NCBI RefSeq assembly: GCF_903914075.1 | Contig: NZ_CAIWNQ010000002.1 | Span: 372,001-436,000, forward strand | Origin: Ruegeria sp. THAF57 | GTDB lineage: Bacteria; Pseudomonadota; Alphaproteobacteria; Rhodobacterales; Rhodobacteraceae | Reading direction: 5' to 3' | Length of the DNA stretch: 64,000 nucleotides | Shown here: positions 7,554 to 33,258 of the stretch, piece by piece | Layout of the letters: each line of letters opens with the position of its first letter | How positions within the stretch are numbered: the first letter of the stretch is position 1 | Notes under the pieces: model-generated | What the model saw: only the letters and a program-made list of their open reading frames with translations | What the model was told of the DNA's origin: nothing | The model's database searches: none | Program-made: the position numbers and the translations under genes

Positions 7554-8285
7554 TCAGGTCATATAGCTGCGCACCAACGCACCTGCGATCAAGGACCAGC
7601 CATCCGCGATAACAAAGAATGCCAACTTGAACGGCAGCGATACTGTCGCTGGCGGCACCATCATCATGCCCATAGACATCAGCACCGCAGCAACAACCAG
7701 ATCGATGATCAGGAAGGGTAGGAAGATCAGGAAACCGATCTGAAATGCCCGCGCGATTTCGGACAACATGAAGGACGGCATCAGGATCGAAAGCGGTGCT
7801 TGTGGCGACAAGGCAATCGCCTCTCCTTCGGGGCGCAAGGCGGCCATCGCATGAAAAGTATCCGGATCCAGCCGCGCCGCCATAAAGCCGCGAAAAGGTT
7901 GCAGGGCGCGCTCAAGCGCCGGTTCCACATCCAGTGTTTCATCGATCATTGGGCGAATGCCGGTTGTCCAGGCTTCGGTAAAGACAGGCTCCATAATGAA
8001 ATAGGTGAGAAACAAGGCCAGGCTCACGATCAGCATATTGGGCGGAGATTGCTGCAATCCGATACCTTGCCGCAGAATGGCCAGAACTGTGATCAGAAAG
8101 GGAAAGCACGTGATCATGATCGCCAGACCGGGCGCAAGGCTCAGCACCGTGATCAGAAGGATCAACTGGATTGTCCGCGCCGAGATCGAGCCGCCCTCTC
8201 CCAGCGAGAGCGACAGCTCTTGCGATGCCGCCAGCGAGGGCATCAAAGATACAGCGGCGACGGCCACCCAAAGCAGCAAGCGCAT
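7554..8285 (-). CDS. fliP: Flagellar export gate protein FliP
   Basis: 243 residues from the ATG at 8285, which overlaps the fliN stop as TGATG; a TTG one codon earlier is less likely. It has a signal-like N-terminus (LLLWVAVAAVSLMPSLAAS), then the FliP hallmarks LAPGLAIMITCFPFLITVLAILRQGIG, QSPPNMLIVSLALFLTYF and the C-terminal PSFMLSEIARAFQIGFLIFLPF. FliP, with FliQ and FliR, forms the helical export gate at the centre of the MS ring. FliQ and FliR are not in the window. Confidence 0.95.
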   Translation of the reverse strand: MRLLLWVAVAAVSLMPSLAASQELSLSLGEGGSISARTIQLILLITVLSLAPGLAIMITCFPFLITVLAILRQGIGLQQSPPNMLIVSLALFLTYFIMEPVFTEAWTTGIRPMIDETLDVEPALERALQPFRGFMAARLDPDTFHAMAALRPEGEAIALSPQAPLSILMPSFMLSEIARAFQIGFLIFLPFLIIDLVVAAVLMSMGMMMVPPATVSLPFKLAFFVIADGWSLIAGALVRSYMT

Positions 8286-8572
8286 CAACCGATCCCGTTC
8301 TGCAAGTCCGCAATCTCGGTCAACCTCACGGCTAGCTGACCTGCCTGATCGCCCTCCATCTCTTCCAACAGTCCGCGCGCCACCAAGTGATCGCCAACAT
8401 ACAAATCGACAGGGTCTTCGATCCGCTTGTCCAAGGTCAGCACCGCATTCTCACCCATGTTCAGCAAATCCCGGATCAGGGGGCGCGCGCGCCCGACCGA
8501 GACCGTGACCTCGATCGGCACCGAATCGAACGGGCTGGATTTTTCGGGTTTTGGGGTTTGGTCGTCACTCAT
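8285..8572 (-). CDS. fliN: Flagellar motor switch protein FliN
   Basis: 95 residues forming little more than one SpoA (surface presentation of antigens) domain: VPIEVTVSVGRARPLIRDLL followed by LDKRIEDPVDLYVGDHLVARG. FliN builds the lower C-ring with FliM and FliG and docks the FliH-FliI export ATPase. The gene overlaps the upstream fliH-like gene by 8 bases and is coupled to fliP. The short form lacking a long N-terminal extension is normal for this lineage. Confidence 0.92.
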   Translation of the reverse strand: MSDDQTPKPEKSSPFDSVPIEVTVSVGRARPLIRDLLNMGENAVLTLDKRIEDPVDLYVGDHLVARGLLEEMEGDQAGQLAVRLTEIADLQNGIG

Positions 8573-9161
8573 TGCTCAATGCCTCTTTTGCCTCAAAAAC
8601 ATACGCGTCGAATGCGCCTGAGATCGTTGCAAGCAGGGCGCTGCAATCTACCTCACGTTGGAAAACACCGACCTGCAAGCGCGCTTGACCGGGCTCCAAT
8701 GCCGGGTCTTCAATCACCTGGGTCGCGGAGGACAGACTCTCTGGCACCATGCTCTCCAACTCGGGCGCGCACCCTTCGGGCACAAAGACCTGCATGGGCT
8801 GCCCGATGTGATCACGCGCGAATTCGGTCAACTGTTCGACCAACCGGGCCGCAAAACCCCGATCCAGTGTTTCGGGCAATACGGTTCGCATTAGACTCTG
8901 GAACATCGGCTCCAACGACGTGGACATCCGTGCAATCGCTTCGTGGTATGTGAAGGACATATCCTCAAGTGATTTAGCCAGAGTTGCAGACGCCTCGCCA
9001 CGGTCCTGTTCCCGCGCCTGAAGCGCGTCTTCCCATCCTGCGCTATAGCCTTCTTCGAACGCAGCCAGCCGCATTTCTTCCAGCGCGTCGTCATCCAGCA
9101 GGTGCACCTTTCCTGTTCCGGCATGCAGGGTAAAATCTTCCAGAAGGTGAGCAATCGACAT
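8565..9161 (-). CDS. FliH-like flagellar export ATPase regulator
   Basis: 198 residues, coupled to fliF by a TGATG overlap. The N-terminal half is acidic and helical (EEMRLAAFEEGYSAGWEDALQ, then a likely coiled coil). The C-terminal half resembles FliH/HrpE, ending with a PGQARLQVGVFQREVDCSALL stretch similar to the ARLQWxxGxxxxD end of FliH. FliH binds the FliI ATPase and links it to FliN. Similarity is weak at sequence level, and the call leans on its place between fliF and fliN. No fliI is present in the window. Confidence 0.65.
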   Translation of the reverse strand: MSIAHLLEDFTLHAGTGKVHLLDDDALEEMRLAAFEEGYSAGWEDALQAREQDRGEASATLAKSLEDMSFTYHEAIARMSTSLEPMFQSLMRTVLPETLDRGFAARLVEQLTEFARDHIGQPMQVFVPEGCAPELESMVPESLSSATQVIEDPALEPGQARLQVGVFQREVDCSALLATISGAFDAYVFEAKEALSNE

Positions 9162-10750
9162 CAGACCCGCTCCTCCTCTTCCTCAAGCCAACTGCGCAGG
9201 ATTTCGACAGTCTCTTCCTGCTTGTCGCCGATCATCGCCCGCAGCCGGTCCACCGGATCAGCGATGGTTGCCGCGGCGAGTGCCGGTACATTGCCTGCGG
9301 GCGCCTGCCCTTCAAGCGGTGCGAAATTGCCGCTGTCCCCAGTTGCGATCTCACCGATCAAGGCAGCCTCTGGCTCGGTCGGCTGGGACGCAGGCAACAA
9401 CGTGGTCGCCTCGGTCGGCTTCGTTAGGATTGGGCGGATCACGAACAGGCCCAAGACCAGTGCGACAACCGCCAGAACAACCATCTGAATCAACGACATC
9501 GCGTCCAAATGCACTTTTTGCCAGATCGATGCAGACGCCAACGTCCCCTGTGGTTCAACCACCGGGAGGTTCAGGGACTTTAGTGTAATCACGTCGCCAC
9601 GCTCTGCGTCGAAACCAACCGCCGAAGCCACCAATTCTTCAAGAGCATCTAGTTCTGCCTGCGGCATCGGTTCGAAGCGTTCCACCCCAGCGGCATCCAC
9701 CGCGCGAGTTCCGTTCACCAGAACGGCGACAGTCAGTCTTTTGATCGCCCCCGGTGCATTGTGAATCTCAAGCTCTGTCTCTGAAACCTCATAGTTCACA
9801 CGTTCGCGCGTTTGCGTCGCGTTCGAGTTCGACTCATCACCACCCGCGCCGTCGCCATCCGGCAGGTTCGACGCCACAGTTACATCCGCCGATTGGTTCC
9901 GCGCACTGTCCGAGCGCTCCTCGACATCCGTGCTGATCGCGACCCGACCGTTGGGATCAAACCGACGTTCGCGAATGGATTCCGTTTTGGTCACCGTATC
10001 AACGCTGACCTCAACAACTGCGTTTCCGGCGCCGACTCGAGCTTCGACAAGGCGCAAGACCCGCTCGCGCAACTGGCGCGACTTATCATCAGCCGTGTCC
10101 GAGGCAACAGCATTATCCTGCGCGCCAATCACGGCCCCGCTGGAATCGATTACCGCCACATTTTCAGACGCAAGCCCACTTACGGCCGAGGCAACAAGAA
10201 AGCGGATCGCCTTGGCCTGATCCGCTGTAATATCCGCACCCGAAGAAACCAGGTAAACCGACGCTGTTGGCGCGATGCTGCGTTGAAACGGATTGGTTGA
10301 TCCATTCGCTATGTGCACACGCGCCTGACTGATATGCGGGCCGCCAACGATGGTCCGGGCCAGCTCACCTTCTTTTGCGCGCCAATAAGCAGCATCGAAC
10401 ATCTGCGACGTCGTGCCAAAACCGCTGAGCGAATCCAGAAGCTCGTATCCCTGCGTTCCGTTGGCGGGCAAACCCTCGCTCGCCAGTGTCATGCGCAGTT
10501 CGTCCCGCTGCGACCCCGGCACATAGATCGAGCCGCCCCGAATCTCATAGTGAACGCCACGCTGTTCCAGCGATCGGACGATATCCCCCGCCGCGCTACT
10601 TTCCAGCCCGGCATAGAGCAAGGTCATCGACGGTGCCGTCACCAATCGCGACATCGCAAGGACGCCAAAAAACACCAGCACAACCGCACCGGCAAGGATG
10701 ATTTGTTTACGCCTGTCCAAATTAGCCCAGACAGTTCCGATCTGCTGCAC
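9161..10750 (-). CDS. fliF: Flagellar MS-ring protein FliF
   Basis: 529 residues from the GTG at 10750, which has GGAGG five bases upstream; an in-frame GTG two codons earlier would overlap that ribosome site. The first membrane segment is at about 18-38. It is followed by the ring-building region with SLLYAGLESSAAGDIVRSLEQRGVHYEI-type sequence and YWRAKEGELARTI. A second membrane segment is at about 430-450 and the short cytoplasmic tail ends in EEEEERV, which binds FliG. The MS ring is the base on which the flagellum assembles. The gene heads the minus-strand arm of the flagellar block. Confidence 0.94.
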   Translation of the reverse strand: MQQIGTVWANLDRRKQIILAGAVVLVFFGVLAMSRLVTAPSMTLLYAGLESSAAGDIVRSLEQRGVHYEIRGGSIYVPGSQRDELRMTLASEGLPANGTQGYELLDSLSGFGTTSQMFDAAYWRAKEGELARTIVGGPHISQARVHIANGSTNPFQRSIAPTASVYLVSSGADITADQAKAIRFLVASAVSGLASENVAVIDSSGAVIGAQDNAVASDTADDKSRQLRERVLRLVEARVGAGNAVVEVSVDTVTKTESIRERRFDPNGRVAISTDVEERSDSARNQSADVTVASNLPDGDGAGGDESNSNATQTRERVNYEVSETELEIHNAPGAIKRLTVAVLVNGTRAVDAAGVERFEPMPQAELDALEELVASAVGFDAERGDVITLKSLNLPVVEPQGTLASASIWQKVHLDAMSLIQMVVLAVVALVLGLFVIRPILTKPTEATTLLPASQPTEPEAALIGEIATGDSGNFAPLEGQAPAGNVPALAAATIADPVDRLRAMIGDKQEETVEILRSWLEEEEERV

Positions 10751-10808
10751 GCTCACCTCCGACTCGCCGACATTCTGCCCAGCGCATCCCTTGTTTGGAC
10801 GATTGCCC

Positions 10809-10823
10809 TTAACAATCGGTTAG
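10809..10823. promoter_or_regulatory. Candidate CtrA box between fliF and fliL
   Basis: TTAA-N7-TTAG lies in the short divergent region between fliF and fliL, one mismatch from the CtrA consensus TTAA-N7-TTAA. CtrA controls flagellar genes in several Rhodobacterales, so one site could drive both arms. The evidence is one motif match plus context. Confidence 0.45.
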
Positions 10824-10869
10824 TCCCTGCCGGGTTATGACGATTGCTGAACGGATGAATGAGGACGTC

Positions 10870-11367
10870 ATGACCGACGCGACCGCAGAACAGGCAGAAA
10901 CCCCGAAAAAATCGGGGAAAATGGGACTGATCATCGGCCTGATTCTGGCGATGATCGGCGCAGCAGGTGGGTATTATCTGACCACCTCGGGGGTGCTGCC
11001 AATTGGGACCAGGACCAGCACGCATGAGGCCAAAGAAAAAAAGGAAAATACGCCCGGAATGGCGCTGCCCGATGTTGGCTTTGTCGATCTTCCGCCAGTG
11101 ATCGTTTCGGTAAATACAGGCACGTCCCGCCATTTGAAATTTCACGCTCAGCTTGAGGTGGATTCTGAATTCCTGGGCGATGTCGAAAAAATGAAACCGC
11201 GAATCATGGACGTTCTGAACGGATACCTGCGCGCGGTCGAAATCTCAGACCTCGAAGATTCGCTGGCGCTGATGCGTATCCGCGGGCACCTGCTTCGACG
11301 CATCGGAATAGTCGTCGGAGAAGATCGCGTGCGCGATGTCCTCGTCATGGAATTCGTACTGAACTAG
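10870..11367 (+). CDS. fliL: Flagellar basal-body protein FliL
   Basis: 165 residues from the ATG at 10870, preceded by GAGGA; frames opening at 10837 add 11 unsupported residues. There is a short cytoplasmic N-terminus and a single membrane segment (MGLIIGLILAMIGAAGGYYL). The periplasmic FliL domain contains FVDLPPVIVSVN, the LKFHAQLEV strand and the C-terminal VRDVLVMEFVLN. FliL surrounds the stator units and modulates torque. It starts the plus-strand arm, opposite fliF, with the possible CtrA site between them. Confidence 0.92.
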   Translation: MTDATAEQAETPKKSGKMGLIIGLILAMIGAAGGYYLTTSGVLPIGTRTSTHEAKEKKENTPGMALPDVGFVDLPPVIVSVNTGTSRHLKFHAQLEVDSEFLGDVEKMKPRIMDVLNGYLRAVEISDLEDSLALMRIRGHLLRRIGIVVGEDRVRDVLVMEFVLN

Positions 11368-11376
11368 GAGGCGAAG

Positions 11377-11877
11377 TTGGAACTGATCGCAGATATGTTG
11401 CTTGTTGCGGGGGCCCTTGGTGCGGGCTTGTACTGCTTCGTTCTGTCCCGGCGCCTGAGGCGTTTCACCGATCTGGAAAAAGGGGTCGGCGGCGCGGTGG
11501 CTGTCTTGTCGACGCAGGCGGATGAGTTGAAGAAGTCACTGGATTCAGCACGTGCAGCGTCTGACAAATCCGGCGATGACCTGAAGGTTCTGACACAGAG
11601 GGCAGAAACAGTTGCGCAGCAGTTGGAATTGATGATGGCGTCGATGCACGACGTCATCTCGGAAGAACCTAAACCCGAGACCCCCACCAAAACAGAAGCC
11701 GAAACTGCGCCAGAGGCCCCAGAGACAGAGACTGCACCAGAAGTGGCTCCGAGTGCTGAGGCCTCAGACGATGAAATGGATGACGTACAGAAACCAGAGC
11801 AAGACAGCCCCGCCAAACGACCGGTTGGCCTGATGTTCATGCGGCATGGTCGTAGTCGGGGCGAGGTCACAGGATGA
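11377..11877 (+). CDS. Unknown membrane-anchored coiled-coil protein of the flagellar cluster
   Basis: 166 residues from a TTG start with a strong AGGAGG five bases upstream; the SD decides this start. One N-terminal membrane segment (MLLVAGALGAGLYCFVLS) is followed by RRLRRFTDLEKGVGGAVAVLSTQADELKK-type heptad sequence (about residues 25-95). Next comes a low-complexity tail rich in Pro, Glu, Thr and Ala (about 98-145) and a basic end. I do not recognise a family. The position between fliL and the motE-like gene, with an ATGA overlap to the latter, points to a structural or chaperone role around the stator. Confidence 0.75.
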   Translation: MELIADMLLVAGALGAGLYCFVLSRRLRRFTDLEKGVGGAVAVLSTQADELKKSLDSARAASDKSGDDLKVLTQRAETVAQQLELMMASMHDVISEEPKPETPTKTEAETAPEAPETETAPEVAPSAEASDDEMDDVQKPEQDSPAKRPVGLMFMRHGRSRGEVTG

Positions 11878-12446
11878 AGCGCAAACCTGCCAATCGCCCC
11901 AAAGGCGGTGTTCTTGCAGTGATATCTGCTTTGATGGTCGGATCGGCCGCGATTCGAGTAGGACTTGAAGCCGGACCTGCCCTCGCCAAAACGACCGAAC
12001 CAGCGGCATTCGAGTCCAATAAAACTCAGGTAGACCAGCCCGGGGCACAGGAACTTCTGACCGCGCTGTTGCGCCGCGAAGAAGCGTTGAAAGACCGTGA
12101 GGCGGCGTTGCTGGTAAAGGAAAAGGCTCTGGGCATTGCGGATCAGGCTATTGAGAACAGGTTGGTCGCCTTGCAGGAGGCCGAAGAAAACCTGCGCGAA
12201 ACGCTGGCCTATGCCGAAAAAGCCGCCGAAACCGACCTGACACGCCTGACTGACGTTTATCAAAGCATGAAGCCGAAAGACGCCGCAGCCTTGTTTGAAA
12301 CGATGGACCCGAAGTTTGCGGCGGGTTTCCTGTCGCGCATGCCATCCGATGCGGCAGCGGGCGTTCTGGCCGGGCTCAGCCCCGAGGCGGCTTATACGAT
12401 CAGTGTCATCATGGCCGGTCGAAACGCCTCCGCCCCGCAGGAATGA
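11874..12446 (+). CDS. MotE-like stator chaperone (MgtE-N-like domain)
   Basis: 190 residues. A basic N-terminus and signal/anchor (VLAVISALMVGSAAIRVGL) are followed by a long helical region dominated by EEALKDREAALLVKEKALG-type coiled coil (about 60-120). The C-terminal domain (DAAALFETMDPKFAAGFLSRM near 140-160) is the MgtE-N-like fold seen in MotE. In Sinorhizobium MotE is a periplasmic chaperone for MotC. It precedes motA here, supporting a stator-related role. The next gene, motA, follows after 43 bases. Confidence 0.75.
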   Translation: MKRKPANRPKGGVLAVISALMVGSAAIRVGLEAGPALAKTTEPAAFESNKTQVDQPGAQELLTALLRREEALKDREAALLVKEKALGIADQAIENRLVALQEAEENLRETLAYAEKAAETDLTRLTDVYQSMKPKDAAALFETMDPKFAAGFLSRMPSDAAAGVLAGLSPEAAYTISVIMAGRNASAPQE

Positions 12447-12489
12447 CCTGAAGCTTACTACCCGCCTTTGACTCTGCTGGAGATCACAC

Positions 12490-13359
12490 ATGATCGGACT
12501 AATCGGAATTGTCGTCATTTTCGTCATGGTATTCGGTGGCTATCTGGCTGCTGGTGGCAAGATGGCAATTATTTTGAAATCGCTGCCGTTTGAAATGATG
12601 ATGATCGGGGGGGCGGCTGTCGGTGCTTTTCTGATCAGCAACGACATGAGCGCTGTGAAACACACCGCCAAGGACATCGGCAAAGTGTTCAGGGGCCCGA
12701 AATGGAAGCCGGAAGACTATCGCGATCTCTTGTGCCTGTTGTTTTCCCTGATCCGAATTGCAAAGGCCAATCCGGTCGAGGTGGAGCAGCATATAGAGGA
12801 CCCCGAAAATTCATCTTTGTTTTCGGCCTATCCAAAAATTCAGTCAGACAAAGAAGCCGTTGATCTGATTTGCGACACGATGCGCTCTGCGTCGATGAAC
12901 TATGACGATCCGCATCAAGTCGAAGAAGTGCTGGAAAAGCGGATGGAGGCGAATTTTCATCATGCCATGCATTCCAGCCACGCCCTTCAAACGGTCGCTG
13001 ACGGCCTGCCCGCACTGGGGATTGTCGCCGCCGTTTTGGGTGTGATCAAGACAATGGGGTCCATCGACCAGCCACCCGAAGTTCTGGGAAAGCTGATTGG
13101 CGGCGCCCTTGTTGGGACATTTCTTGGTGTTTTCCTGGCATATGGTCTGGTCGGACCCTTCGCCGGCAAGCTGAAAGCCGTGGTTGAAGAGGACAACCAT
13201 TTCTACCAGCTGATCAGGGAAGTGCTGGTCGCCAACTTGCACAACCACAATCCTGCAATGTGTATCGAGGTTGGGCGTCAGAACACGCCCACCCACAACC
13301 GGCCGGGTTTCTCCGAGCTTGAAGACGCGCTGAAAGAGCTCAAGCAGGCGGCGGCATGA
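12490..13359 (+). CDS. motA: Flagellar stator protein MotA
   Basis: 289 residues, typical for the longer MotA of alphaproteobacteria. Four membrane segments are apparent: IGIVVIFVMVFGGYLAAGG, PFEMMMIGGAAVGAFLI, ADGLPALGIVAAVLGVIKTMG and GTFLGVFLAYGLVGPFAGKL. The last two carry the conserved prolines of the ion channel. The cytoplasmic loop has the charged HQVEEVLEKRME region that meets FliG. MotA needs MotB, which is absent from this window. Its stop overlaps the next gene by four bases. Confidence 0.94.
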   Translation: MIGLIGIVVIFVMVFGGYLAAGGKMAIILKSLPFEMMMIGGAAVGAFLISNDMSAVKHTAKDIGKVFRGPKWKPEDYRDLLCLLFSLIRIAKANPVEVEQHIEDPENSSLFSAYPKIQSDKEAVDLICDTMRSASMNYDDPHQVEEVLEKRMEANFHHAMHSSHALQTVADGLPALGIVAAVLGVIKTMGSIDQPPEVLGKLIGGALVGTFLGVFLAYGLVGPFAGKLKAVVEEDNHFYQLIREVLVANLHNHNPAMCIEVGRQNTPTHNRPGFSELEDALKELKQAAA

Positions 13360-15497
13360 TCAGAGCAGCAATACTTGCCGTGGCCCTGATGGCAATTGCT
13401 TGTGCGGCTGTCGCGCAGGATGTTCCGGTTCGGTCAGGTGAACACGAAGGTTACACGCGGCTGGTGGTACAAGTGCCCACGAACACGGGCTGGACCCTTG
13501 CGCAGACCAAGAATGGCGCACGCCTGAGCGTTGCGTTGGATGGCGTGAAATTCGATACCCGCTCGGTCTTTCGCCGGTTGACGCAAAATCGTCTGGCGGC
13601 GATTTCACAGAGCACTCCGGGAGGAGCGCTGGAGATGCAATTCGGTTGCGACTGTGTCGCGTCTTCGTTTTTGCACAACAAGACAATGATCGTGGTGGAT
13701 ATTGCTCCGGCGGCATTGCTCCCGGAAATCAGCGGTGACATCCCATCCCCGCTGCTGCCCAAAGCTATCCCGGCGCAAAACCCGCTGAAGCAAACACAAC
13801 TGCCGGAGGCGTTGTCGCTGCCACTATTGAGCTTGAATGCGCAACAGTTTGAAAGCCAGTTATCGGCCCGGTTGCTACAGGGTGCCGATCGCGAACTCGT
13901 CGATCTCAAGATTGCTCCGGTTGGGCCCAGAGCATCCATCGCGCAAGAGCCTGCGCTTGCACCGATGGATCTGGACGCAAATATCACCGTGACTTCGGTT
14001 TTGGATGAATTGGATGAATTTCTGGATGCAGGCATTATCCCGAATGAACGCCAGCCTCAGTGCCTGTCCAGCGCAGACCTAAGCTTTGGGACATGGGGCG
14101 GAACGAACCCGTTTCCCGAACTGGTGTCAGCGCTCCGGTCAGCAGTGTATCAGGAATTCGATACCCTCGATGAAACGAAAGTATTGGAATTGGCAAAGCT
14201 ATACGCGTCCCATGGGTTTGGCGCAGAAGCGATTCAGGCATTGGGCTTGTTGGGCCGGAATTCGCCTGAATCAGAACGCATCAACGCGATCGCGCAGTAC
14301 CTTGATGACGGCCAGGTTTCAGGGTCAAACCCGTTCAAAGGCCAGCAGGGGTGCGACAGCGACGCGGCATTGTGGGGGGTGCTGACCGAAGGGAATCTAT
14401 CGGATGATGTTCGGTTGAAGACGGTGGAACAGACCTTCCAGCGCTTGCCAAAACATCTACGGCGTCAGGTAGGCCCTGCCTTGGCCGAGATTTTGACTGA
14501 AGGTAAGGAAGTGGAGGCCGCCCGGCGCGTATTGCGGACGGTTGACCGGGTCTCGGACTATTCCACGGCAAGCGCGTCGCAGGCCAAGGCGACCGTCGCA
14601 ACGGTGGAGGGCGATGGAGAGCGCGCCGAAACACTTCTGAGGGACGTCCTCTCTTCTTCGGACACAACGGTAGAGGCTCCGCTGGCCCTTGCACGACTTG
14701 TCGAGAAACGGTGGCTCGACAGAGGCTCTGTTTCTGCGAAAGAAGTCGAATTGGCCGCCTCTTACGCTGTTGAATTCCGAGGTTCAGAGCTTCAGCCCAC
14801 GACCCAGCGCACCCATGCAGTTGCACTAAGTCTGAATCATGAATTTGATCAGGCGCTGAACCTTCTGGGGGAAATCCCCAAGGACACGGAGGATGAGGTG
14901 GCATTGAACCGGGTCACGCAAATGCTGGTGGAACGTGCAGATGACACGACTTTTTTGCGCCGCACGCTGATAATGTCGAAAAGAAACGCCCACGCCCTGT
15001 CGACAGAAACCGCCGTCGCTGTTGCAACCCGATTGGCATCGCTTGGTTTTGCGGGCCCGGCCCATTCCATGGCAAGTCGAATTCAAGACAAGACGCAAAA
15101 ATCGGATCGCGCGCGTATTCGGGCACAATCTGCCTTGCAGAGTAACCGACCGCATCAGGCGCTGCTTGAACTGGCTAAAACCCCGTCTACGGATGCTGTT
15201 GATCTTAGGGCACAGGTGTTGCAGGCGACCGGCGACTTCGCTGCCACGGCCAACGTGTTAAGGGCTTCGGATCAGCACGAAGCGGCTAACAGATTTTTCT
15301 GGCTGGCCGATCTCAATGACGAAGTGGAAACTAAACTTGACGATCGGTATAGCCAAGTCAGCCAATCCACTCAGTTCCTTTCGCAACCGTTGACCCGCAG
15401 CCCGGACAGGCCCTTGGCCGATGCCAGGGAACTCTTGCAGCACAGTGCCATTACCCGACGGGAGATTGTTGCGCTCCTGTCGAAAGTGGCTGAATGA
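13356..15497 (+). CDS. Large secreted helical-repeat protein linked to motA, unknown
   Basis: 713 residues, coupled to motA by an ATGA overlap. A signal peptide (AAILAVALMAIACAAVA) is followed by about 100 residues (RSGEHEGYTRLVVQVP, TRSVFRRLTQNRLAAI) resembling an AMIN-type beta domain. After a Pro/Leu-rich linker, most of the rest is alpha-helical with TPR-like spacing (EAIQALGLLGRNSPES, EAARRVLRTVDRVSDY, HQALLELAKTPSTDAV). Two cysteine pairs may form disulfides. I know no named family. The context suggests a periplasmic partner of the stator or basal body, analogous in position, not in sequence, to rhizobial MotC. Confidence 0.8.
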   Translation: MIRAAILAVALMAIACAAVAQDVPVRSGEHEGYTRLVVQVPTNTGWTLAQTKNGARLSVALDGVKFDTRSVFRRLTQNRLAAISQSTPGGALEMQFGCDCVASSFLHNKTMIVVDIAPAALLPEISGDIPSPLLPKAIPAQNPLKQTQLPEALSLPLLSLNAQQFESQLSARLLQGADRELVDLKIAPVGPRASIAQEPALAPMDLDANITVTSVLDELDEFLDAGIIPNERQPQCLSSADLSFGTWGGTNPFPELVSALRSAVYQEFDTLDETKVLELAKLYASHGFGAEAIQALGLLGRNSPESERINAIAQYLDDGQVSGSNPFKGQQGCDSDAALWGVLTEGNLSDDVRLKTVEQTFQRLPKHLRRQVGPALAEILTEGKEVEAARRVLRTVDRVSDYSTASASQAKATVATVEGDGERAETLLRDVLSSSDTTVEAPLALARLVEKRWLDRGSVSAKEVELAASYAVEFRGSELQPTTQRTHAVALSLNHEFDQALNLLGEIPKDTEDEVALNRVTQMLVERADDTTFLRRTLIMSKRNAHALSTETAVAVATRLASLGFAGPAHSMASRIQDKTQKSDRARIRAQSALQSNRPHQALLELAKTPSTDAVDLRAQVLQATGDFAATANVLRASDQHEAANRFFWLADLNDEVETKLDDRYSQVSQSTQFLSQPLTRSPDRPLADARELLQHSAITRREIVALLSKVAE

Positions 15498-25595: not shown

Positions 25596-27047
25596 CTAAC
25601 CATGGAAACTTGCCACCGTTTTGAGTTGTGAGAACCCAAACAGCGCCTCAAATCCCTTTTCGCGACCATGCCCGGATTTTCCCACCCCGCCAAAGGGCAG
25701 TTCCACGCCGCCACCGGCGCCATAATTGTTGACGAAAACCTGACCCGAGCGCAGACGTTTTGCCAATCGCATCTGGCGTGCACCATCGCGGGTCCAAATG
25801 CTGGCCACCAGGCCATAATCGGTTCCGTTGGCAATCTGCACGGCGTCTTCCTCGGAATCGAACGGAATCAAGACCTGCACAGGGCCGAATATTTCGTCAC
25901 GGGCCAACGCGTGATCGGGCGGCACGTCAGAAAACAGCGTTGGACGGACATAGGCCCCATCGGTTGGCGCGTGCTCAACGATGCGCCCCTGCGCAGCGAC
26001 TTTCAGATCCACTCCCTTGGACAAAAACCCTTCAACGATGTGCTTTTGACGGGCGGAAATCAGGGGACCGAGCCGCAAATCCTCATTCGCTGGTCCAACG
26101 GTCAGATCGGCATAGGCGTCGGCCATACGGGATTTGACCTGCTCATACACTCCACGCTGCACCAATATGCGAGACGAGGCGGAACAAGTTTGACCCGCGT
26201 TCTGAATGCCTGCGTTCGCCAGATACGGCAGGGCAGCGTCCAGATCGGCATCGTCAAACACCAATTGTGGGGACTTCCCGCCCAATTCCAGCGTCACCGG
26301 CACCACATTGCGGCCTGCTGCCTGTTGCACCAGCGCACCTGTGGCGACCGACCCGGTAAACGAAATATGATGCACGCCGGGATGACCGGACAACGCGGCA
26401 CCAGCCTCGGCACCCAATCCTGGCACCACATTCAACGCACCTGCTGGCAACCCGGCCTCTTGCGCCAGATGTGCGAAGGCAAGTGCCGTCAGACAGGCTT
26501 CTTCGGCAGGCTTCAGGACACAGGCATTGCCCATCGCCAGCGCAGCCCCGACCGAACGGCCAATGATCTGCATGGGGTAATTCCACGGCACGATATGGCC
26601 GGTCACCCCATGCGGCTGTCGTAGCGTGTAGACGGTGTAGCCTTCCAAATAAGGTATTGTGTCGCCCATGACCTTGTCGGCGGCACCGCCATAGAACTCG
26701 CAATACCGCGCCAGCGCCACAGCATCGGCGCGGGCCTGTGTCAGGGGTTTTCCGACATCCATCGCCTCCAGAGCTGCCAGATCATCGACCCGTTCCAATA
26801 CCAACTGACCCAATCGCGTCAGGATGCGGCCCCGCTCCAGCGCGGTTTTACGGCCCCAGTCACCGTCAAGGGCCGATTGCGCGGCTTGGACCGCTGCGTC
26901 GATATCTGCAGCCTCGCCTCGGGCGATACGGCAAATCTCAGCCCCGTCAGAAGGGTTGACCAAAGGCAAGGTCGACCCCGAGGTGGGATCGCCCCATGCG
27001 CCTCCGATCAGACAATGGGTTGGGTTGAACCAGAGAGGATTGGGCAT
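25596..27047 (-). CDS. NAD-dependent aldehyde dehydrogenase, last gene of the importer operon
   Basis: 483 residues with a complete catalytic set: VTLELGGKSPQLV (general base), AGQTCSASSRILV (nucleophile Cys) and PWNYPMQIIGRSVG in the cofactor domain. The broad family includes betaine-aldehyde, aminobutyraldehyde and aliphatic aldehyde dehydrogenases; specificity cannot be fixed by eye. It starts 34 bases after the double ATPase gene on the same strand, so it probably oxidises an aldehyde derived from the imported compound. AGGAG precedes the ATG. The motif GTTAGAGCCGAA just upstream also occurs before betB. Confidence 0.9.
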   Translation of the reverse strand: MPNPLWFNPTHCLIGGAWGDPTSGSTLPLVNPSDGAEICRIARGEAADIDAAVQAAQSALDGDWGRKTALERGRILTRLGQLVLERVDDLAALEAMDVGKPLTQARADAVALARYCEFYGGAADKVMGDTIPYLEGYTVYTLRQPHGVTGHIVPWNYPMQIIGRSVGAALAMGNACVLKPAEEACLTALAFAHLAQEAGLPAGALNVVPGLGAEAGAALSGHPGVHHISFTGSVATGALVQQAAGRNVVPVTLELGGKSPQLVFDDADLDAALPYLANAGIQNAGQTCSASSRILVQRGVYEQVKSRMADAYADLTVGPANEDLRLGPLISARQKHIVEGFLSKGVDLKVAAQGRIVEHAPTDGAYVRPTLFSDVPPDHALARDEIFGPVQVLIPFDSEEDAVQIANGTDYGLVASIWTRDGARQMRLAKRLRSGQVFVNNYGAGGGVELPFGGVGKSGHGREKGFEALFGFSQLKTVASFHG

Positions 27048-27080: not shown

Positions 27081-28679
27081 TCAAGCCACCTGACTGCCGA
27101 TATCTGGCAGAACAGGCGCGGCGTCGATCAAGGTTCGGGTATAGGGATGCTGGGGGTCGGAAAAGACCTGCTCGGTCTCACCCTGCTCAACAATTTTACC
27201 GGCCTGCATCACCATCACGCGGTCAGTGATTGTTCTGACGACACTAAGATCGTGGCTGATAAACAAATAGGTCAGGTCATATGCCGCGCAAAGCTCAGCC
27301 AAAAGGTCGAGGATTTGCGCGCGTACGGATACGTCAAGCGCCGAAACAGCCTCGTCAAACAGGATCAGCTCGGGCTGGATGATCAAGGCGCGGGCAATGG
27401 CGATGCGTTGCCGCTGACCACCGGAAAATTCGTGGATGTACTTATCGGCATCCTTGGGGCTGAGGCCCACGGCACTCAGCATTTCGGCGATCAGGTCCTG
27501 GCGTTCTGCCCCCATGGGAGGATTTTCCAATACGTGAAACGGTTCCGTGATCAACCGCTCGACCCGGTGGCGGGGGTTGAAACTGCCATAGGGGTCTTGG
27601 AACACCACCTGCATCTTTCGCCGCACGGCTGGGTTTGGCTTGTGGCCCGCAAAAACGGGCTCCCCTTCCAGTCGGATGTCCCCGGCCTGAACCTCCTCCA
27701 AACCCAAAATCGCCCTTGTTAGGGTCGATTTTCCACATCCAGATTCGCCAACCAATCCCAAACGCTCCCCACGTTTGAGGGTGAAGCTGACCTGATCGAC
27801 GGCGCGGTGATGACCGGGTGTATCAAACAAGCCTTTCCGGGGAAGGCGATAGTCGCGGACAACCTGCGTAACCTCAAGCAACGGGCGCGGGCTTATCGTG
27901 TCGGGCAGAGAAACCTTGTGGCCAGACGCTTCGAACAGCATGCGCGTGTAGGGGTGCTGCATGTTGCGCAACAGGCTTTCTGTCACCCCTTCTTCAACGA
28001 CTTCGCCGTGACGCATAACGACGATCTTGTCCGCCAAATCCGCCACAACCGCCAGATCATGGGTGATCATCAGCAGACCCATGCCATATTCGCTGACCAA
28101 CCCCCTGAGCAGATCGAGGATCTGCGCCTGCGTGGTGACATCCAGCGCCGTCGTGGGTTCGTCCGCGATCAACAAGGTCGGGCGCAGCGCAATGGCCATG
28201 GCGATCACGACACGCTGGCGCTGACCGCCTGACAATTCGTGCGGATAACGGGTCAGGGGGAAACGGTCAGGTGGCAGCCCCACGCGGGTCAGAACCTCCT
28301 CGGCGCGTTCACGGGCTTGCGGGCGGGGCATCGCCTTGTGGATCAGGATTGTCTCCATCACCTGATCCCCGATGGATTTGACCGGGTTCAGTGCGGTCAT
28401 CGGTTCTTGAAAAACCATTCCGATCGCGGCACCGCGCAGGGCACACATGTCCACCTCGGGGCGGGTCAAAAGGTCATGGCCTTCCAGCCGGATTGCACCT
28501 GTTGCCTGCCCCCCGTTCGGCAGCAACTGCATCACGGCCAATGCAGTCATCGACTTGCCCGACCCGCTCTCGCCGGTTACGGCCACAATCTCACCCGGGG
28601 CGATGGACAGACTGACCTGTTTCAGGATCGGCGTGCCGTGGATCGTCAGAGACAGGTTTTCAATATCCAGCAAGCTCAT
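27081..28679 (-). CDS. Double ATPase of a peptide-type ABC importer (DppD-DppF fusion)
   Basis: 532 residues from the ATG at 28679, which overlaps the permease stop (ATGA); a longer frame adds 11 unlikely residues. It has two complete ABC domains: Walker [10 protein letters not shown] near 35, signature [17 protein letters not shown], then Walker [10 protein letters not shown] near 308 and signature [15 protein letters not shown]. Two OppD/OppF-type C-terminal extensions ([10 protein letters not shown] and [10 protein letters not shown]) are present. Fused pairs are common in this transporter class. It powers uptake through the two permeases upstream. Confidence 0.93.
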
Positions 28680-29491
28680 GCACGCGCCACCCTTATCCGA
28701 GGATCCAGCCAATCACGCAGACCGTCCCCCAAAAGGTTCAGACCCAGCACGGTGACGATAATGGCAAGCCCCGGAATCAGAGCCAAATGCGGGGCAAAAC
28801 TGACCATTGTCTGTGCGTCGGCCAACATCCGGCCCCAACTGGGCGTTGGCGGTTGCGCCCCCAGACCGACATAGGACAGGCCCGCCTCGGCCAGTATGCC
28901 CAGCGAGAACTGAATGGTCCCTTGCACGATCAGCAAATTGGCGACGTTGGGCAGAATGTGTTCGGCTGATATCCGGGCGGCACCTTTGCCAGACACACGG
29001 GCGGCAAGGATGAACTCGCGCTCCCACAGGGACAGCGCCGCGCCGCGGGTGATGCGGGCAAAAACGGGAATGTTGAATATGCCGATTGCGATAATTGCAT
29101 TGATCGCCCCGGCGCCGAACACAGCGGTGATCAGGATCGCGATGACTAGCGAAGGGAACGCAAAGACCAGATCGTTGCCGCGCATGATCACCTCATCCAG
29201 CCACGATCCTTTGCGCGCTGCTGCCGCCAATCCCAGCGGCACACCAAGCGCCATGCCGATACCCACCGCAACCAGGGCCACCGCAATGGACGTTCGCGCA
29301 CCGACCATGATCATGGAAAACATGTCGCGGCCAAAATGATCCGTTCCGAACCAGTGCTGCGCATTTGGTGGTTGCAGCTTGTCCGGGATATTCAGCGCGG
29401 CATAGTCGTAAGGCGTCCAGACAAACGAGACCAAGGCCGCCAGAACAACCAGCGACGACAAAGCCGCGCCTAGGATCAGGTTGCGGCTCAT
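28676..29491 (-). CDS. Peptide-type ABC permease, DppC family
   Basis: 271 residues from the ATG at 29491, which overlaps the stop of the DppB-like gene. The frame is open much further upstream, but that part (to 29929) is a shadow of the other permease. Features: FGTDHFGRDMFSMIMVGARTS after the first membrane segment, the EAA-type loop EREFILAARVSGKGAARISAEHILPN, and GLGAQPPTPSWGRML, all hallmarks of DppC/OppC. It forms the translocation channel with the DppB-like subunit. Confidence 0.93.
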   Translation of the reverse strand: MSRNLILGAALSSLVVLAALVSFVWTPYDYAALNIPDKLQPPNAQHWFGTDHFGRDMFSMIMVGARTSIAVALVAVGIGMALGVPLGLAAAARKGSWLDEVIMRGNDLVFAFPSLVIAILITAVFGAGAINAIIAIGIFNIPVFARITRGAALSLWEREFILAARVSGKGAARISAEHILPNVANLLIVQGTIQFSLGILAEAGLSYVGLGAQPPTPSWGRMLADAQTMVSFAPHLALIPGLAIIVTVLGLNLLGDGLRDWLDPRIRVARA

Positions 29492-30435
29492 GTCCGGCTC
29501 CTCAGGCGCGGATCGACGGCGGCATAGGCCAGGTCGACCAGAAAATTTACGGTGATGACGGCAAACACCAGCAGCATGACCACCGATTCCACAACGATCA
29601 AATCCCGGGCAGAGATCGCCTGAAACACCAGCCGCCCGAGGCCCGGAAGGTAGAACACCTGCTCGATAATGATGGACCCGGCCAACAGGAACGAGAATTG
29701 CAGCCCGATAATGGTCAGCACTGGTATCAGAGCGTTGCGCACCCCGTGCCTCCACAAGGCTTGCCTGCGCGTTAACCCCTTGGCACGGGCGGTGCGCATG
29801 AAGTCTTCTCCCAGAATATCCAGCAGGGATGACCGCATCACCCGCGCCAAAATCGCTGCTTGCGGCAAGGCCAGCGCGATAGCGGGCAGGGTCAGAGAAT
29901 GCAGGCCAGTCCAGAACCCGGTGTCCCACCCTGCGAACCCTCCGGCATTGAACCAGCGCAGGTTGATGGCGAAGATTAGCACCAGCATCATCGCAAACCA
30001 GAAATTGGGAACCGCGATGCCCAACTGCGTGGCACCCATCACGGTCAGATCCCCCGGTTTACCCCGTCGCGCGGCGGCATAGATACCCGCGGGAAAGGCG
30101 ATCAGGGTCGACAGGGTCAGCGCGTATAACGCCAATGGCAGCGACACCCACAAACGATCTGCAATCATCTGCGAAACCGGCGTTCGATATGTGTAGGAGG
30201 TTCCGAAATCCCCCATCAGCATCCCGCCAACCCAGCTAAAGTAACGCTGAATCTTCGAGCCATCCAATCCAAGCTCTGCACGCAGCGCGGCCAACGTGTC
30301 CTCTTGCGCGTTGACGCCCAGCATAAAGGATGCGGGGTCGCCGGGCGCAACCTCGATCACGGCAAAAATGACCACCGAGGCCACGGCCAGGCTGATCATC
30401 AGAGATATCAGACGTTTAAGCGCATAACGGAGCAT
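29488..30435 (-). CDS. Peptide-type ABC permease, DppB family
   Basis: 315 residues if the ATG at 30435 is used; a GTG three codons upstream (30444) is also possible, and neither has a strong ribosome site. The start MLRYALKRLISLMISLAVAS and the later APGDPASFMLG, GDFGTSYTYRTPV and EDFMRTARAKGLTRRQALWRH (EAA loop) identify the DppB/OppB family. It follows the ligand-gated channel gene after about 40 bases and overlaps the DppC-like gene. So the channel gene sits inside the transporter operon, not beside it. Confidence 0.92.
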   Translation of the reverse strand: MLRYALKRLISLMISLAVASVVIFAVIEVAPGDPASFMLGVNAQEDTLAALRAELGLDGSKIQRYFSWVGGMLMGDFGTSYTYRTPVSQMIADRLWVSLPLALYALTLSTLIAFPAGIYAAARRGKPGDLTVMGATQLGIAVPNFWFAMMLVLIFAINLRWFNAGGFAGWDTGFWTGLHSLTLPAIALALPQAAILARVMRSSLLDILGEDFMRTARAKGLTRRQALWRHGVRNALIPVLTIIGLQFSFLLAGSIIIEQVFYLPGLGRLVFQAISARDLIVVESVVMLLVFAVITVNFLVDLAYAAVDPRLRSRT

Positions 30436-30475
30436 TGGTGCCACGTTAGGATCACATATCGCCTGGGTCCAGCAC

Positions 30476-31552
30476 CTAAGGGATCAGAAGATAGGCAAAA
30501 ACTGCGTAACCGACGATAGCGGCATAGCCCAAAGGATAAATCCACTTGATCGCATAGTTGTCCAGCTTGCGCGCAGCCTCTTCTCGGCCCGACACTTTGA
30601 GCTTGCGAAGGGCCACGTTGAACACGATCAAAGCCCCGGTCATCAGGAACATGCACTGCAGAACAAAATCCAGAAACGTCAGGTAACCCAGCTTGGGCAG
30701 ATCGGCCGAGATTGCCCAGTTGAAGGCCACAAAAACCAAAAGGTTACCTCCGGCGATTTCAATCCGCCTGCGGTATTCGTCCAGAAAGAACAGCGCCCAG
30801 CCGACGGTGATCAGCACCAGCATCGGCAGGAAAACACGGATCACATAGTAGGTCAGGTGACGACTGCCTTCAAAGACCAGCGCGATCTGATCACTGTCCT
30901 GCCCCGACAAGCCCGGAACCGTCGATGCTTCGACACGGGCGTTTCCAAGAACCCACTCTTCCTCACCCAGCATGTCGCCCAGGCCCGAGTGGTCTTCGAG
31001 CGGATAATAGGACACATATTCCGAGGGAAAGATTGAGACGACTTCAAAGAAGAAATCCTGCGTGTCGAACGGGTATTTGCGAAAATCGAAATGCGGGGCC
31101 TGCAACGTCAGATTGGATTTCTCGACATAGACCACCCGACCGTCATACCGCAGCGAGGCGGCGGACTCGTGTATCCATTTGTTGGACTGCTGGTTGTGAA
31201 TGACGAAAGCGGGCAACACGGCCCCGATACTTGCCGCGTGGTCGGCCAGTGCAGGTGGATTGAAAACCCGGATATCCCGACCCAATGCCTGTTGGTCGAA
31301 GGCCAGCGCGGGATCGGTCCATTCCACCCGCAACACAACAACCGCGCCGTAATTCTCGGCCTTTTGGTCAACGCTGGTGATCTGGTCAATCCTGATGCCG
31401 ATACCAACCTGCAAAGGGTTTTCCGGCGTGCCTGCCAGCGCATCCAGCCGCCCGCCAAGCGCGTTTTGTGCCTGCGCCTGCCCGCCCATGACCAACACGA
31501 GGCAGGTTAGGGAAACAAGCAAACAAATGGCGCGATACACAATCATAGTCAT
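30476..31552 (-). CDS. Prokaryotic pentameric ligand-gated ion channel (Cys-loop receptor homologue)
   Basis: 358 residues from the ATG at 31552; the longer frame to 31582 runs through a terminator hairpin and is unlikely. A signal peptide (IVYRAICLLVSLTCLVLVMG) leads to an all-beta extracellular domain with the family hallmark KYPFDTQ at about 149-155; the flanking disulfide cysteines are absent, as in other bacterial members. M1 (YYVIRVFLPMLVLITVGW, about 235-257), M2 (about 263-284), the invariant-type ADLPKLGYLT M2-M3 loop, M3 (about 291-312) and C-terminal M4 (about 335-358) are all present. By position it is co-transcribed with a solute importer and probably shares its ligand. Ligand and ion selectivity are unknown. 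Confidence 0.9.
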   Translation of the reverse strand: MTMIVYRAICLLVSLTCLVLVMGGQAQAQNALGGRLDALAGTPENPLQVGIGIRIDQITSVDQKAENYGAVVVLRVEWTDPALAFDQQALGRDIRVFNPPALADHAASIGAVLPAFVIHNQQSNKWIHESAASLRYDGRVVYVEKSNLTLQAPHFDFRKYPFDTQDFFFEVVSIFPSEYVSYYPLEDHSGLGDMLGEEEWVLGNARVEASTVPGLSGQDSDQIALVFEGSRHLTYYVIRVFLPMLVLITVGWALFFLDEYRRRIEIAGGNLLVFVAFNWAISADLPKLGYLTFLDFVLQCMFLMTGALIVFNVALRKLKVSGREEAARKLDNYAIKWIYPLGYAAIVGYAVFAYLLIP

Positions 31553-31565
31553 CAGGATTCTTCTG

Positions 31566-31595
31566 AAAAACAGGGGCCACACATGGAAGCCCCTG
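31566..31595 (-). terminator. Attenuator between binding protein and channel genes
   Basis: On the minus strand CAGGGGC pairs with GCCCCTG (7 bp, 11-base loop) and is followed by TTTTT. It starts 6 bases past the binding-protein stop and precedes the channel gene. Partial read-through would give high binding protein and low channel and permease levels. Confidence 0.8.
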
Positions 31596-31600
31596 AAAAG

Positions 31601-33088
31601 TTATTCAGACCAACTGATTTCCGTCAGGTCGATGGCAGCCGTCGGCGCGTTCTTCCACAGGCCCTGCACACCCGCCCGCGCAACACCCAACTTGGCAAGC
31701 TGGAACAGGTATCCATTGACATAGTCGTTCGAGATCAGCCTTTGGGCTTCACCCAACAGCTTTTTACGCTCGTCTGGGTCGGTGGTTTCGTTCAGCGTAT
31801 TCATCAAAGTCTGAAAATCGACGCTGTCATACTGGAAATAGTAATCCGGCCGGGCATAGATTCCGATATCCATGGGTTCCGTATGGCTAACAATCGTCAG
31901 GCCAAAATCCTTGCCCTTGAACACGGATTCCAACCACTGCGCCCATTCCACGTTGATGATTTCCGCCTGAATTCCAACCTCAGCCAATTGCGCTGCGACG
32001 ATCTCGCCGCCGCGCCGGGCATATGATGGGGGCGGCAGGTGCAGCGTGGTTTCGAGCCCTTTTTCATACCCCGCATCTGCCAGCAACTGGGCGGCTTTCT
32101 TGGGGTCATAGGCCGATTTCCCGGTCAGATCGACATAGGCCGGGTTGTGCGGGGCAAAGTGGGTTCCAATCGGTGTGCCATAGCCGAACATGGCCCCGTC
32201 GATAATGGCCTGGCGGTCAATGGCATGCGCCACGGCCTGCCGCACCCGAATATCATCAAACGGTGGCTGCTTGTTGTTGGTGGACAGGATGGTTTCGCCT
32301 TCGGTTGATCCGACAAGCACTTGAAACCGCGGATCAGCCTCGAACTGAGGCAGGTTTTCAGGCGCCGGGAAATTGTCGAATACGTCCACATCCTCGGCCA
32401 TCATCGCGGCAAAGGCGGCGGTGGGGTCCGAGATGAACTTGAACGTGGCGGTCTCTAGCGCAGGTTGTTCACCCCAATAATCCGGGTTGCGGTTCAATGT
32501 GATGCTGTCACCCTGAACCCATTCACCAAAGGTGAAAGCTCCGGTTCCGACAGGGTTGGTCTTTATGTTCTCGATACTCTCGGGGGCCACGATCACCGCG
32601 TCACCCCAAGCTAGATTGAACAGAAAATTCCCGTTTGGGGCTGAGAGTGTGACCTTGACGGTCAGGGGGCCCATGACCTCGACGCTTTCGATCCCGGCGA
32701 ACAGGGCTTTTTGCGCATTGGCACTGTCTTCGGCGGTGGCGCGATCAAGGCTGAACTTGACGTCTTCGGCATCCATCGTTGTGCCATCATGGAACGTAAC
32801 CCCGTCGTGCAGCTTGAAGGTATAGACCGTGCCGTCCTCGGAAATCTCCCAGCTTTCTGCCAGGCCGGGCACGACCGACCCGTCACCCATGAACCGCGTC
32901 AGACCTTCGAAGATATTCGTGTACACAACCGAATCGATGGCCTGCGCCGCGGCGCTGGTCGGGTCAAGATGCGGCGGTTCCAGTTGCATTGCGATGGTTA
33001 TGTCGGACTTGGCCAAAGCCTGCGTTGCAAACAGGCTGGCACCCACTGCAAGGGCCGAGGCAAAGGACCGAAACATCTGCTTTGTCAT
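31601..33088 (-). CDS. Family-5 (dipeptide/oligopeptide-type) ABC binding protein
   Basis: 495 residues from the ATG at 33088 with GGGGAG upstream; a longer frame adds 29 residues before a clean signal peptide (FRSFASALAVGASLFATQALA). The SBP_bac_5 pattern is clear: PPHLDPTSAAAQAIDSVVYTN, GLAESWEISEDGTVYTFKLHDGVTFHDG, NPVGTGAFTFGEW and VRQAVAHAIDRQAIIDGAMFGYGTPIGTH. Family members bind peptides, opines, nickel chelates or other amines, so the substrate is open. It is the first gene of the operon with the ligand-gated channel, two permeases, ATPase and aldehyde dehydrogenase. Confidence 0.93.
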   Translation of the reverse strand: MTKQMFRSFASALAVGASLFATQALAKSDITIAMQLEPPHLDPTSAAAQAIDSVVYTNIFEGLTRFMGDGSVVPGLAESWEISEDGTVYTFKLHDGVTFHDGTTMDAEDVKFSLDRATAEDSANAQKALFAGIESVEVMGPLTVKVTLSAPNGNFLFNLAWGDAVIVAPESIENIKTNPVGTGAFTFGEWVQGDSITLNRNPDYWGEQPALETATFKFISDPTAAFAAMMAEDVDVFDNFPAPENLPQFEADPRFQVLVGSTEGETILSTNNKQPPFDDIRVRQAVAHAIDRQAIIDGAMFGYGTPIGTHFAPHNPAYVDLTGKSAYDPKKAAQLLADAGYEKGLETTLHLPPPSYARRGGEIVAAQLAEVGIQAEIINVEWAQWLESVFKGKDFGLTIVSHTEPMDIGIYARPDYYFQYDSVDFQTLMNTLNETTDPDERKKLLGEAQRLISNDYVNGYLFQLAKLGVARAGVQGLWKNAPTAAIDLTEISWSE

Positions 33089-33258
33089 AGAAATAACTCC
33101 CCACTGAATATCCGCGACCCCTTGGTTTCCGGGCCTTTCAAAGACCAATGTCACTTTAAACCTTAGGTCAATCAAGGGATTGTTGGCGCAACCGGGGTTT
33201 CTTAGCCCGTGTCCGATCTGCTATGCCGCGCTGCAACATGAACCCCGGAGGAGCGATC

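Follow-up and report, generated by a model that had tools for sequence, protein, structure and literature searches.

A pentameric ligand-gated ion channel in a Ruegeria ABC importer operon: pore charges and gene neighbourhood

Introduction

What would a pentameric ligand-gated ion channel do in a marine alphaproteobacterium, and which ions would it pass when three arginines and a glutamate stand at the start of its pore helix? Both questions are raised by a locus of Ruegeria sp. THAF57, where a channel gene lies among the genes of an ABC importer. The locus is within a stretch of 64,000 nucleotides (contig NZ_CAIWNQ010000002.1, positions 372,001 to 436,000), which is called the window here and from whose first letter all coordinates are counted. 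According to a review (PMC4795631), not one channel of this family in a unicellular organism has a known biological role. An earlier note on this DNA had aligned the M2 pore helix by eye with that of GLIC and had suggested that its charges could give an ion selectivity different from that of the bacterial channels already studied, which are cation-selective. Here we report a comparison of the channel with solved structures and with its relatives, together with an analysis of its gene neighbourhood.

Results

The channel gene occupies 30476..31582 on the - strand of the window and encodes 368 amino acids from a GTG start. Alternative ATG starts are found at 31552 (codon 11, plausible) and 31546. 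The gene was assigned by Pfam, phmmer and AlphaFold2. The Pfam model of the ligand-binding domain, PF02931, matched with 45.7 bits versus a cut-off of 26, and no transmembrane model was reported in the Pfam scan; the NCBIfam models LGIC_1 and LIC matched as well, both below their own cut-offs. The Pro-loop motif, defined as F/YPxD in the text of PMC4795631 available to us, is present as YPFDTQ. In the AlphaFold2 monomer (mean pLDDT 85.1, pTM 0.71), a signal-like helix at the N-terminus is followed by the ligand-binding domain, with beta-sandwich strands over residues 57-241, and then by helices at 243-266, 270-292, 303-330 and 334-366. The structure prediction covered the monomer. We place the window protein in the Cys-loop / Pro-loop superfamily of pentameric ligand-gated channels and, within it, in the sTeLIC/DeCLIC subfamily, a grouping made in this analysis.

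The channel gene gave dN/dS values of 0.06-0.21 in eight of nine comparisons and was saturated in the ninth; the values are rough because dS was about 1 or more. Judged by dN/dS and by the M2 residues that are kept (see below), the frame is not a chance ORF. In the nine comparisons, dN was 0.10-0.36 for the channel versus 0.03-0.09 for the first permease of the importer, indicating that the channel evolves faster.

Among solved structures, phmmer matched the window protein to the cation channel sTeLIC with an E-value of 8.5e-78, to DeCLIC with 1e-69, and to the best GLIC chain with 5.1e-22. Fold matches of the AlphaFold2 model gave Z scores of 29.5 for sTeLIC (309 residues), 28.1 for DeCLIC and 26.4 for GLIC, a smaller gap than that seen by sequence. 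Because sTeLIC and DeCLIC are nearer by both measures, and much nearer by sequence, GLIC was dropped as the sole yardstick. We also considered the fold comparison as evidence on selectivity, and dropped it because anion channels match as well: chains of the anion-selective glycine receptor and RDL were among the best 50 Foldseek matches of the window model.

sTeLIC (PDB 6fl9) is 42% identical to the window channel and resembles it in its acidic 2' residue, Lys at -1', Arg at 0' and Leu at 9', whereas it has Thr rather than Arg at -2', Asp rather than Glu at 2' and Phe rather than Trp at 16'. DeCLIC (PDB 6v4a, 7q3g; 36-37% identity) has the 2' Glu, -1' Arg and 9' Leu in common with the window channel, but differs in having Gly at -2', Gln at 0' and Phe at 16' (F561), as well as extra N-terminal domains that are without counterpart in the window protein. 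Since sTeLIC also has no extra N-terminal domain, such domains do not define the subfamily. GLIC, from Gloeobacter violaceus, has the same fold and an M2 helix that aligns without gaps, but its identity is ~21%, with Glu at -2', Ala at -1', Asn at 0' and Thr at 2'.

The M2 pore helix comprises residues 270-292 (30707..30775; this and all other M2 features are on the - strand), as indicated by the AlphaFold2 secondary structure and by gapless alignment with GLIC, sTeLIC and DeCLIC. The earlier note had the region right, with an end at 30770 that clips the -2' codon, and its register by eye was correct: the phmmer alignment to GLIC chain 3tlt, an H11'F mutant, is gapless through M2, and LPK follows the helix in both proteins. 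That alignment bears out Arg at -2' opposite GLIC Glu222, Glu at 2' opposite Thr226, Leu at 9', and a run of three Arg (R271, R272 and R273) at -2', -1' and 0'. Arg271 at -2' (30770..30772) sits in the first turn of M2 in the monomer model, and Arg272 and Arg273 (30764..30769) correspond to GLIC A223 and N224. Glu275 at 2' (30758..30760) is the equivalent of DeCLIC E547 and sTeLIC D227 (chain numbering) and is proposed to form a cation-attracting ring. At the hydrophobic gate position, Leu282 (30737..30739) aligns with DeCLIC L554, which is named 9' in the accessible text of PMC9897478. The upper gate, 16', is occupied by Trp289 (30716..30718).

Similarity to the window's channel yielded 59 distinct channel proteins, the window's included. 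M2 residues were counted in the 58 that have a full M2, the 59th being dropped because its M2 is incomplete; 48 of these belong to an operon clade and 10 lie outside it. All 58 sequences have Glu or Asp at 2', Arg or Lys at -1', Arg at 0' and Leu at 9'. Position -2' is Arg in 47 of them (44/48 in the operon clade and 3/10 outside) and otherwise Ser (4), Gly (3), or Gln, Lys, Thr or Ala (1 each); within the operon clade, three of the 48 have Gln, Gly or Ser. At 16' the change is clade-specific, with Trp in 48/48 operon-clade sequences versus Phe in 10/10 outside. Twelve sequences of other branches (L107-L112, L114-L118 and L120, of which L114 aligns poorly) were left out of the 58, and only one of the 12 has an acid at 2' (L116; alignment read by eye). 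The 2' acid thus marks the sTeLIC/DeCLIC subfamily.

These counts do not sustain the view that the channel stands apart from the cation-selective bacterial channels already studied, since the nearer sTeLIC and DeCLIC have a 2' acid and a basic -1'. As read from the alignments, the M2 charges of the window channel are unusual when compared with GLIC, but mostly ordinary for its own subfamily, and Arg at -2' alone is particular. It is possible that these charges alter ion selectivity relative to the studied bacterial channels; taken by themselves, they are no pointer to a new ion preference.

The acidic residues near the cytoplasmic mouth of the window channel are Asp at -5', Glu at -4' and Glu at 2', each a putative ring in the pentamer. 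Over positions -5', -4', -2', -1', 0' and 2', the charges of the window channel sum to 0, and the sum is -1 to +1 in 25/25 aligned rows; sTeLIC and DeCLIC also give 0, and GLIC gives -1. Among the 10 sequences outside the operon clade, -5' is Glu in the three that carry -2' Arg, but Gln, Lys or Arg in the other seven, which suggests that an extra base at -2' is offset by an extra acid, although this sample of 10 sequences is small and phylogenetically clustered. Position -5' is Asp in 48/48 operon-clade sequences, also where -2' is Gln, Gly or Ser, and no compensation is therefore seen within that clade.

The window channel was also compared with known selectivity motifs. An acidic ring at -1' or -2', a trait of cation-selective members, is absent, with Arg at both positions; with -1' basic, the Glu that marks metazoan cation channels at this position is missing too. 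The looser cation trait, some acidic ring at the cytoplasmic mouth, is matched by the putative rings at -5', -4' and 2'. The anion motif, given as Ala-Arg/Lys before M2 without a nearby acid in the portions of PMC549065 and PMC4795631 at hand, is also absent: the window sequence is RRRIE, and -5', -4' and 2' are all acidic. The available text of PMC9897478 classes DeCLIC as cation-selective from two acidic residue rings at its cytoplasmic mouth and adds that this selectivity still needs validation under further conditions, so the yardstick itself is unproven. In oocytes, depletion of calcium appears to elicit cation currents through DeCLIC, according to the accessible part of PMC12664993.

An anion-selective or poorly selective pore, produced by the -2' Arg ring together with the basic -1' and 0', has in its favour that Arg takes the place of the GLIC acid, and the available text of Tasneem and colleagues (PMC549065) expects both selectivities in prokaryotic members from pre-M2 charges and gives six bacterial sequences in which a basic residue resembles the one found in anion channels. 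We nevertheless consider such a pore unlikely: it is the 2' acid that is invariant and the -2' Arg that varies, sTeLIC and DeCLIC also combine a basic -1' with an acidic 2', and the Ala that precedes the basic residue in the metazoan anion motif is missing. In addition, the ligand-binding domain is strongly acidic, each subunit carrying between -6 and -17 net charges in the 24 rows covering it, and this would attract cations. If the window channel conducts, its pore is probably cation-selective.

Two alphaproteobacterial channels of the other branches, L107 (G419) and L108 (G439), have TGRVGVTF and TGRFGVTF, respectively, leading up to and into M2. None of their residues between -2' and 2' is acidic, and in this they resemble animal anion channels. 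By their residues, a bacterial anion channel seems more likely to be found in these two than in the window protein. Titles and abstract openings in the literature yielded no paper on a bacterial member measured to be anion-selective.

It is also conceivable, but improbable, that the channel hardly conducts and instead senses a ligand as the importer's partner in the membrane, its cytoplasmic end being locked by R-2' and E2' on the pore face, an i/i+4 pair, four residues apart, in the first turns of M2. The 16' Trp of all 48 operon-clade sequences could narrow the upper gate, and the gene order with the importer would suit such a partner. However, the pore residues 9' Leu and 2' acid, which would be needless without conduction, are kept in all 58 sequences, and -2' varies among close orthologues.

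By alignment, Glu76 (31355..31357, - strand) and Glu207-209 (30956..30964, - strand) are the equivalents of DeCLIC E347 and of its loop F residues E479-E481, which the accessible text of PMC9897478 gives as the calcium site. Glu76 is kept in all 24 rows that have a letter there, and Glu207-209 is EEE in 25/25 rows. Calcium block of the window channel is a fair prediction from these residues.

In the window, the channel gene lies between the binding-protein gene and the permease genes of the importer, with short gaps on both sides, and the importer and aldehyde dehydrogenase genes are all on the - strand. The upstream gene encodes a family 5 solute-binding protein (31601..33175; PF00496, E 4.9e-93). 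Downstream of the channel are ABC permease 1 (29488..30444; PF00528, PF19300), ABC permease 2, a double ABC ATPase of the dipeptide/nickel type (27081..28712; PF00005 in two stretches) and an aldehyde dehydrogenase (25596..27047; PF00171, E 2.5e-152). The mechanical ORF of permease 2 spans 28676..29929 with PF00528 over ORF residues 229-413, and the true start is further downstream, near 29.5 kb. Scans found 1 promoter-like site versus 3.3 expected and 10 terminator-like sites versus 8.5 expected.

Assignment of a substrate from the similarity of the binding protein was dropped, as 52 family-5 sequences in the PDB match (best 1.6e-47) and 11 NCBIfam models match with none above its cut-off. 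For the aldehyde dehydrogenase, the 25 NCBIfam models shown all score below their cut-offs; one for aminobutyraldehyde dehydrogenase ranks among the better of these weak matches.

Titles and abstract openings in the literature revealed no paper on this operon. As described in the text of PMC549065 available to us, bacterial channels there have a conserved neighbourhood with a stand-alone PBP-II type binding-protein gene, which is like the arrangement here; the difference is that the binding-protein neighbour is named and not a whole operon with permeases, ATPase and aldehyde dehydrogenase. The same text contains no match for Silicibacter. Because a binding-protein gene beside a bacterial channel has already been reported as a theme, the locus does not represent a new kind but adds an example, one whose conservation is unusually good.

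In 44 of 53 loci from public genomes, a set found with peptide patterns from the window protein and therefore biased to close relatives, the channel gene comes directly after the binding-protein gene and ahead of the first permease gene. The whole gene set is present in 43 of these 44, the 44th (L053) ending early because of an insertion, and the order is kept down to channel identities of about 53-57%. The nine remote loci gave no match to the importer genes of the window operon, so the link between channel and importer is a lineage trait; remote channel relatives have other neighbours. A channel match was found in 40 of the 101 relatives searched and, besides the window's own genome, in 37 of 53 genomes of the same genus.

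Other genes intervene between channel and permease in L053 and in three Leisingera loci (L058-L060). L053 (Ruegeria sp. HKCCSA071) carries sarcosine-oxidase-type genes and an AraC-type regulator gene between channel and first permease (9265-15480), and L058 has an antiparallel gene of the histone-deacetylase family between channel and permease (9096-10418, E 9.3e-68); the channel-permease gaps of L059 and L060 are similar in size to that of L058. Two damaged copies were also seen. In Jhaorihella thermophila (L081, ~8000-9100) the channel gene is frame-broken and the surrounding importer genes match along their length, and a genome of the same family (G060) has a distant channel copy of 43% identity interrupted by stop codons, with another weak match elsewhere in the genome.

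All 16 channel-less genomes of the same genus retain the binding-protein gene, and the first permease gene lies nearby in each, which shows that the importer does not need the channel. When the channel slot was translated in 14 of these 16 loci, we found a gene of ~345 amino acids in seven (L086:3095-4114, and L088, L090, L091, L096, L097 and L099), a short antiparallel ORF in four and next to nothing in three; in the other two, L092 and L098, the gap has the size of the ~345-aa gene. The ~345-aa protein has a signal-like start. The L086 protein, one of the seven, has no Pfam match at 0.01; that it might be a repeat protein was an impression by eye.

On a quick-search tree of panB and the binding protein (66 rows, 46 with the channel and 20 without), channel presence changes at least 11 times, with at least 5 changes forced by well-supported branches; 20 of the 63 inner branches are weak. 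The early branches beside the channel-less outgroup all carry the channel, so that the simplest reading is one early gain followed by repeated loss, and transfer of the channel gene back into some genomes is possible. It is improbable that the channel gene is lodged in the operon for expression alone, functionally unconnected to the importer, as the importer's persistence in the 16 channel-less genomes, the different gene in seven of their slots and the other neighbours of remote relatives might suggest, given the order kept in 44/53 loci to such low channel identities and the short gaps that flank the channel gene in the window. Conserved order together with an importer retained where the channel is absent argues that the channel is an accessory of the importer.

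Discussion

We favour the reading, to which we assign a probability of about 0.6, that the window encodes a channel of the sTeLIC/DeCLIC type, most likely cation-permeable, which acts as an accessory sensor of a family-5 ABC importer. At the pore, the 2' ring of five Glu, with Glu at -4', would be the cation-attracting filter. The -2' Arg would be largely balanced, perhaps through salt bridges, by the acids at -5', -4' and 2', and would for that reason tune selectivity and not reverse it.

Channel and binding protein are probably produced together, and both would be exposed to the one periplasm. The opening signal may be periplasmic; candidates are the solute taken up by the importer, a molecule related to it, pH, and a loss of calcium. 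Once open, the channel could shift the membrane potential or the sodium flux during solute uptake. Most economically, the channel would be a sensor that binds the imported solute or a companion molecule and opens a cation path during uptake.

The histone-deacetylase family of bacteria includes acetylpolyamine hydrolases. Amines open the bacterial channel ELIC, according to a literature abstract. Together with the neighbour in L058 and the sub-threshold dehydrogenase model, this gives a weak hint, by analogy, of amine-type ligand chemistry, and may guide which ligands are taken first.

A bolder version seems quite doubtful to us. It would have a marine alphaproteobacterial lineage with a subunit-like importer-accessory channel that has a Trp gate and a filter of its own, the filter made bipolar by Arg at -2' and Glu at 2', a charge selectivity unlike that of all studied bacterial channels, and the importer's solute as ligand. 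Such a channel would be ligand-gated and would report on nutrient uptake or power it.

The operon is a better lead than the M2 charges. For the question of charge, the natural -2' variants (Arg, Lys, Gln, Gly and Ser) on a fixed 2' acid offer a ready series on charge selectivity in bacterial channels. For the question of function, a conserved nutrient-importer operon is a clue to role that is rare for bacterial channels of this family, and the presence of the binding protein in it gives a direct route, with the solute of that protein as candidate ligand of the channel.
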